Shown here: piece by piece, positions 42,458 to 42,929 of the stretch | How positions within the stretch are numbered: position 1 is the stretch's first letter | How the letters are laid out: every line of letters begins with the position of its first letter | Source: Brachyspira aalborgi | Lineage (GTDB): Bacteria; Spirochaetota; Brachyspiria; Brachyspirales; Brachyspiraceae | Length of the DNA stretch: 64,000 nt | Assembly (NCBI RefSeq): GCF_008016455.1 | Contig: NZ_SAXU01000001.1 | Span: 1,240,001 to 1,304,000 of the forward strand | Direction: 5' to 3' | Notes under the pieces: generated by a model | Seen by the model: the letters and a program-made list of their open reading frames with translations, nothing else | The model's database searches: none | Told to the model about the DNA's origin: nothing | Program-made: the position numbers and the translations under genes

Positions 42458-42929
42458 TTAATCGTCTGCATGAATATATACCATCCCCCAACCCCCACTA
42501 GCAGTGTGCGCCAAGAATAATGTTCTTTTTAAATCATCCTTATTTGTATAAAATCTATAACGATACCCATTATCTAAATCTTCACGATAAGTAATAGCCT
42601 TACCATTAATGGAGTCCCGATAATCATTTGTACCCACTAATATAAGAGGTAGAACTCCTTGTCTTATTGCTTTAGGTGAACCAATAATAGCATTTGAAGA
42701 TGTAGTTTCAAAATAATTATCTCTATTATTATTATCATATATATATTTTCCAGAAAATCCTTGAGGTATTATACCATTATATTTTTCTTCAGGTTTCTGT
42801 TTAGATTTGCAGCTAATTGAAAATAATAATATGAGTAATACGATTTTGAAAGAATTATTGATTAAAGATACAATTTTAGGCTTTGCTTTGCTTTGCTTTG
42901 CTTTGCTTAATGTTTATACAGTATTTCAT
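42458..42929 (-). pseudogene. phase-variable lipoprotein gene, currently out of frame
   Basis: On the minus strand AAGGAG lies seven bases before an ATG at 42929 that reads eight codons (MKYCINIK) into a CAAAG pentamer array. At the present five copies the frame meets TAA straight after the array. The frame that is open beyond the array (140 codons, 42880 down to a stop at 42458, no internal stop) encodes a lipoprotein: NNSFKIVLLILLFSISC gives the signal and lipidation cysteine. A ~115-residue mature part follows, with YNGIIPQGFSGKY, RDSINGKAITYREDLDNG and a C-terminal GGWGMVYIHADD. Three or six copies would join start and body in frame. There is no alternative start in the body frame. No homologue is recognised. 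Confidence 0.8.
42881..42905. repeat. CTTTG pentamer array, five copies
   Basis: Five perfect tandem CTTTG units (CAAAG on the coding strand) lie at codons 9-17 of the lipoprotein reading frame. Arrays of this kind expand and contract by polymerase slippage; 5 is not a multiple of 3, so each step changes the frame. Confidence 0.97.

Follow-up and report, generated by a model that had tools for sequence, protein, structure and literature searches.

In Neisseria, opa genes carry a CTCTT pentamer within their signal-peptide codons at many loci per genome, and the copy number sets the reading frame. A second arrangement has been described for pil1 and pil3 of Streptococcus gallolyticus, where a GCAGA pentamer lies inside a leader open reading frame (ORF) with its own ribosome-binding site, and the copy number places the leader stop before or past a downstream stem-loop (PMC3894217). 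Here we analyse a CAAAG pentamer array in a stretch of 64,000 nucleotides from Brachyspira aalborgi type strain 513A (contig NZ_SAXU01000001.1, positions 1,240,001 to 1,304,000; hereafter the window) that separates a start codon from the body of a lipoprotein gene. In its arrangement the locus resembles opa: a pentamer occupies the 5' region of a gene for a surface protein, copy number sets the frame, and there are many such loci per genome. It is very probably a phase-variable contingency gene for a surface lipoprotein, now OFF, within a set of about 29 repeat loci.

A start codon, a pentamer array and a lipoprotein frame

A sequence-only reading of this locus had proposed that AAGGAG and ATG 42929 lead into five CTTTG repeats and then a stop, which is what we found. 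The five copies are all exact (CTTTG on the plus strand) and begin 24 nucleotides (nt) after the A of the ATG. The repeat encodes the second half of the start-ORF peptide MKYCINIKQSKAKQSKA, and its unit length of 5 is not divisible by 3. Beyond the array a frame is open for 140 codons and, as also proposed, has no start of its own: no ATG, GTG or TTG ORF of at least 60 amino acids was called in the body frame, and other start codons in that frame upstream of the array were looked for and excluded. When the 420 nt of the body were shuffled with dinucleotides preserved, 0 of 3,000 shuffles were open in any frame. The body reads PKIVSLINNSFKIVLLILLFSISC and then KSKQKPEEKYNGIIPQGF, ending in MVYIHADD. 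By inspection, its frame contains the n-region, the hydrophobic stretch and the lipobox SISC with its cysteine (NNSFKIVLLILLFSISC) that mark a lipoprotein.

Since 24 + 5n must be divisible by three, the two frames are joined at three, six, nine and so on copies and not at five, so the arithmetic of the earlier reading (three or six in frame, five out) is correct. A non-triplet repeat thus lies between a start and a body that is intact in one phase, as in translational simple sequence repeat (SSR) contingency genes. Translation from ATG 42929 would run through the array just 5' of the signal peptide, and slipped-strand mispairing would gain or lose one 5-bp unit and shift the frame. The lipoprotein would then be made only when n is a multiple of three, and the sequenced five copies would represent OFF.

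The earlier reading had suggested a search for the body in other Brachyspira genomes. Among 26 genomes it returned the self match only. The body matched nothing in Pfam or NCBIfam and nothing credible among PDB sequences; homology to Opa-family beta-barrels was likewise not found in these three collections, and a single-sequence AlphaFold2 model was poor (predicted local distance difference test, pLDDT, 50). In congeners, the flanking site holds different genes or none. The lipoprotein is no Vsp (PF05540); the genuine Vsp genes of the window follow heptamer arrays at 62151 and 2022. A special fold of the window RNA was considered and dropped (z-score -0.43). Apart from these loci, the window contains in-frame tandem repeats of an 18-mer and a 15-mer at 37260-37452, which are probably coding.

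Table 1. Features of the lipoprotein locus and of the two Vsp loci in the window.
Feature	Position	Strand	Remarks
Sigma-70-like promoter TTGACT-17-TATAAT	42967..42995	-	11/12 consensus matches; 38 nt upstream of ATG 42929
Ribosome-binding site AAGGAG	42937..42942	-	from sequence; 7 nt before ATG
Start ORF (MKYCINIKQSKAKQSKA, then stop)	42876..42929	-	ATG 42929-42927; traverses array; TAA 42878-42876 at n=5
(CAAAG)5 array	42881..42905	-	preceded by core TACTGTA..TTAAG, common to the genome's other CAAAG arrays
Lipoprotein body	42458..42880	-	open frame of 140 codons plus stop TAA 42460-42458; no own start
Signal peptide and lipobox (PKIVSLINNSFKIVLLILLFSISC)	42809..42880	-	relatives: B. catarrhinii L056 and the post-array leader segment
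Leader ORF, 222 codons, with (CGTCAAC)9 at 62151-62213	62115..62783	+	overlaps Vsp start; connected phase at n=9
Vsp gene after that leader	62665..63798	+	PF05540 Serpulina_VSP, E 7.6e-103
Leader start ATG 2113 and (CGTCAAC)8 array 2077-2022	2022..2113	-	leader short, apparently degraded
Vsp gene downstream of (CGTCAAC)8	245..1423	-	PF05540, E 9.5e-98

Repeat loci across the genome and in a sister species

The 513A genome comprises 2,504,147 bases in 8 contigs, equal to the published size and contig number (PMC6779451 Table 3). Three consecutive CAAAG units occur 118 times, resolving to 19 arrays of 3-19 copies, versus 0 occurrences of the reversed control pattern; the window array is therefore far beyond chance. 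All 19 arrays follow a core close to TACTGTAAATTTGTTAAG, and besides them there is one interrupted array (L054) and one locus with a single unit (L103). Together with three CAACG arrays (one within leader sequence of the CAAAG type) and six CGTCAAC heptamer arrays, two of them in the window, the genome holds about 29 SSR loci of three unit types near gene or leader starts. Their targets include lipoproteins of several families, small outer-membrane proteins, Serpulina_VSP (PF05540), a DctP-type binding protein, glycosyltransferase 61 (GT61), a monosaccharide ATP-binding cassette (ABC) ATPase, a 3-hydroxybutyrate-dehydrogenase-like protein, GTPase/dynamin-like proteins and a TM2 zinc-ribbon protein. 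This context makes the phase-variable-lipoprotein reading much stronger than was evident to the earlier reading, which missed the wider system and its two further members in the window.

Several of these loci have features of their own. At L048 (513A C1:2000654-2000925), two tandem leader cassettes precede the sugar-ABC ATPase gene; a run of N follows the upstream array, and the downstream array has nine copies and is in the connected phase. At L043 (513A C1:1524342), a (CAAAG)4 leader joins an outer-membrane protein gene directly, at a natural TTAAGCAAAG inside that gene, and the junction looks like recombination at the repeat. L164 (513A C1:2337429) joins a heptamer leader and a Vsp-like signal start to a DctP-type binding protein, which reads as a promoter, leader and signal swap between families. 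In MKHTKN-type lipoprotein genes, a small hairpin (GTGTGC..ATG..CACAC; L044, 1636-1655) holds the start codon in its loop, and one member of the family has GTTC/GAAC in place of that stem.

One sister species, represented by B. catarrhinii Z12, has the same repeat system. CAAAG arrays of at least four copies were found in none of 23 other congeners and none of 16 other spirochaetes; among 24 congeners, heptamer triplets were absent and CAACG was seen in one, as one short run. Matches to the array core in named genome contigs were confined to B. catarrhinii and scattered single hits in unrelated bacteria, and viral contigs gave one unrelated 3-copy match. Between the two species, the dehydrogenase orthologues are 95% identical and carry eight versus three copies, from which we conclude that copy number changes over time. 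Both members of an orthologous GT61 pair have nine. An array-less dehydrogenase orthologue was sought in the other congeners without success, the gene itself being confined to the two species at E 1e-60.

B. catarrhinii also has a locus with the same layout as the window gene (L056): an ATG, (CAAAG)5 and LINNSFK...LLILLFSISC come before an unrelated body, whose open frame has 301 codons. Its body joins its ATG only when n is divisible by three, so that its five copies again correspond to OFF; a GTG follows the array. The earlier proposal of a phase-variable lipoprotein in the OFF state gained support from the roughly 29 SSR loci, from the open frames kept at them and from the orthologous pair with eight versus three copies.

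Leader frames, a covarying hairpin and the proposed switch

Nearly all arrays are found early in a leader ORF, most of them 7 to 50 nt past a leader ATG. Leaders often have a GAGGAAAG ribosome site and a conserved 5' hairpin (CCGA-GAAA-TCGG). Of the 27 pentamer leader loci in the two species, 26 keep a frame open all the way from the array to the gene start or close by. This frame runs in frame into the gene at 10, ends in an ATGA overlap at 7, at most 11 nt past the gene ATG at 3 and at most 25 nt before it at 4; two loci show a longer out-of-frame overlap with the gene and one an early stop. Among heptamer leaders, open frames of 434-451 nt precede two Vsp genes and the Vsp-headed binding-protein gene, orthologues in the two species (L163, L166) have ATGA overlaps, and the gene resembling GT61 is overlapped by 11 nt.

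None of 3,000 shuffles left the long heptamer leaders open, and for most pentamer leaders the chance probability of the open frame is about 0.002-0.04. For the short CAACG leaders and the two short heptamer leaders the figure is 0.1-0.5, which makes them no evidence by themselves. Leader indels preserve the frame, including inserted palindromic elements in B. catarrhinii, where five leaders (L058, L059, L064, L108 and L109) contain palindromic or dispersed insertions. Pooled leaders have a ratio of non-synonymous to synonymous changes (pN/pS) of 0.68 with an excess of third-position changes. As the leader paralogues are related, the open-frame and pN/pS figures are descriptive and not independent tests.

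Before the downstream Shine-Dalgarno sequence (SD), CAAAG leaders carry a hairpin of the form GATAGCTTAT-stem-loop-stem-TTTAGTTATAAA. Its 12 distinct versions show double compensatory changes at all five inner pairs (CAAGG/CCTTG, CAGAG/CTCTG, CGAAA/TTTCG and others). In the alignment, 96.7% of cells are paired, compared with 82.7% after shuffling and 30-62% in slid registers; the hairpins of L103 and L104, which pair one register off, were omitted from these counts. The hairpin scored as terminator-like at one sister locus, and the T-run that follows it is weak.

At most other loci, a CAAAG, CAACG or CGTCAAC array sits inside a leader ORF of which one phase is open to or through the downstream gene start, in CAAAG leaders by way of the conserved hairpin. 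Translation of the connected leader may turn the downstream gene on by translational coupling, by lifting polarity or attenuation where the hairpin forms, or by both. Between attenuation and plain coupling we state no preference. In an alignment that spans the array and the hydrophobic segment behind it, the head of the window gene matches the leader family (71% identity, E 3.9e-10). We infer from this that leader and signal peptide may be versions of one module, with the window gene as its direct form. It is an even call, in our judgement, that a portable switch cassette exists in B. aalborgi and B. catarrhinii, made up of a promoter, a leader start, an SSR and a leader frame, with the hairpin as a further part of its CAAAG form. 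Copying or recombination, partly at the repeats, would have placed it ahead of genes for surface, glycan, transport and metabolic functions and so produced a phasome of about 29 loci with three repeat units, in which the window leader frame became the signal peptide of the lipoprotein.

Several observations weigh against a switching lipoprotein gene and a positive leader effect. The B. aalborgi copy numbers come from one genome (513A), although PMC6779451 lists 16 other genomes of the species, among them two colony types of a single patient (PC5587-p and PC5587-u). Five copies are near the short end for a fast-switching array, and no homologue of the body was detected in the 26 Brachyspira genomes. 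The hairpin lacks a classical long U-run, and genes of the leader type have a good SD and ATG of their own, so OFF at these loci need not be silent. Switching in the living population, its ON/OFF consequence for the protein and the sign of the leader effect are what we infer from the genomes.

The match of the head to the leader family could also mean that a repeat-leader copy inserted at a lipoprotein gene or arose from one by decay, leaving a pseudogene fixed OFF whose five copies no longer slip. Array-less or interrupted leader remnants do occur elsewhere (L103 with one unit, L054, L106), and a body without relatives would fit. However, the body has no internal stop in 140 codons, a length that no shuffle left open, and promoter, SD, ATG and lipobox are intact around a perfect array; with a second gene of the direct type in B. 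catarrhinii and its 301 open codons, such a relic appears improbable. A-rich repeats can be slippery for ribosomes and a shift of one base would suffice, so that programmed frameshifting might join the frames at a fixed rate with no DNA slippage. This is very hard to reconcile with paralogue copy numbers of 1 to 19 in all three phases, with three different units in identical placement and with an orthologous locus of eight and three copies. Equally remote is an assembly error hiding a gene that is simply ON. One 513A array is followed by a run of N, and B. catarrhinii contigs end in arrays, but this genome was assembled with k-mers of up to 127 (PMC6779451), far above the 25 bp of the window array, and arrays of up to 95 bp were resolved.

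The polarity of the leader loci is a separate matter. Across paralogues, copy numbers cover all three phases, and 3 of the 25 scorable 513A loci are in the connected phase (the ABC ATPase with n=9, the GT61-like gene with n=11 and a Vsp with n=9), fewer than the expected one-third (P about 0.015). Either OFF predominates, or the out-of-phase state is the expressed one at leader loci. In the latter case, a leader read through the downstream SD would interfere or yield a mis-sorted fusion, for which the SD and ATG of the downstream genes would allow. We consider this reversal rather unlikely: positive coupling usually takes the form of ATGA overlaps, which occur here at nine loci, the longer leader is ON in S. 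gallolyticus (PMC3894217), and both direct-type genes, whose polarity is unambiguous, are OFF as well. An excess of OFF is therefore unsurprising, and the first option is favoured. That is, we prefer a switch in which the connected phase is ON.

Comparison with described switches

If this holds, a genome-wide set of translated leader switches would explain surface heterogeneity in a species known to form a dense coat on the human colon, and would call for caution in typing and vaccine design. The repeat switches could let B. aalborgi shuffle its surface, and the roughly 27 leader constructs would form a natural library for testing how translation of a leader controls the gene behind it. Full-text searches returned no description of SSR-driven phase variation in Brachyspira, with most subscription papers outside their coverage, and none of a repeat-based Vsp switch in the literature searched.

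The nearest analogue of the window gene appears to be the Opa type, and that of the leader loci pil1 of S. gallolyticus. The window gene differs from opa in its unit, its phylum and its product, a lipoprotein versus a beta-barrel adhesin, and no sequence relation was found; moreover, the Brachyspira arrays mostly belong to separate leader ORFs with varied targets. A separate leader ORF of the S. gallolyticus type is absent from the window locus, where array and body form one ORF in phase, and present at most sister loci. While S. gallolyticus has two pilus operons with intrinsic terminators, Brachyspira has about 27 varied targets and three repeat units, its leaders continue to or into the gene start, and its covarying hairpin has no strong U-run. 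By itself the window gene belongs to a known class, and the variation that appears new is the genome-wide set of which it is part.
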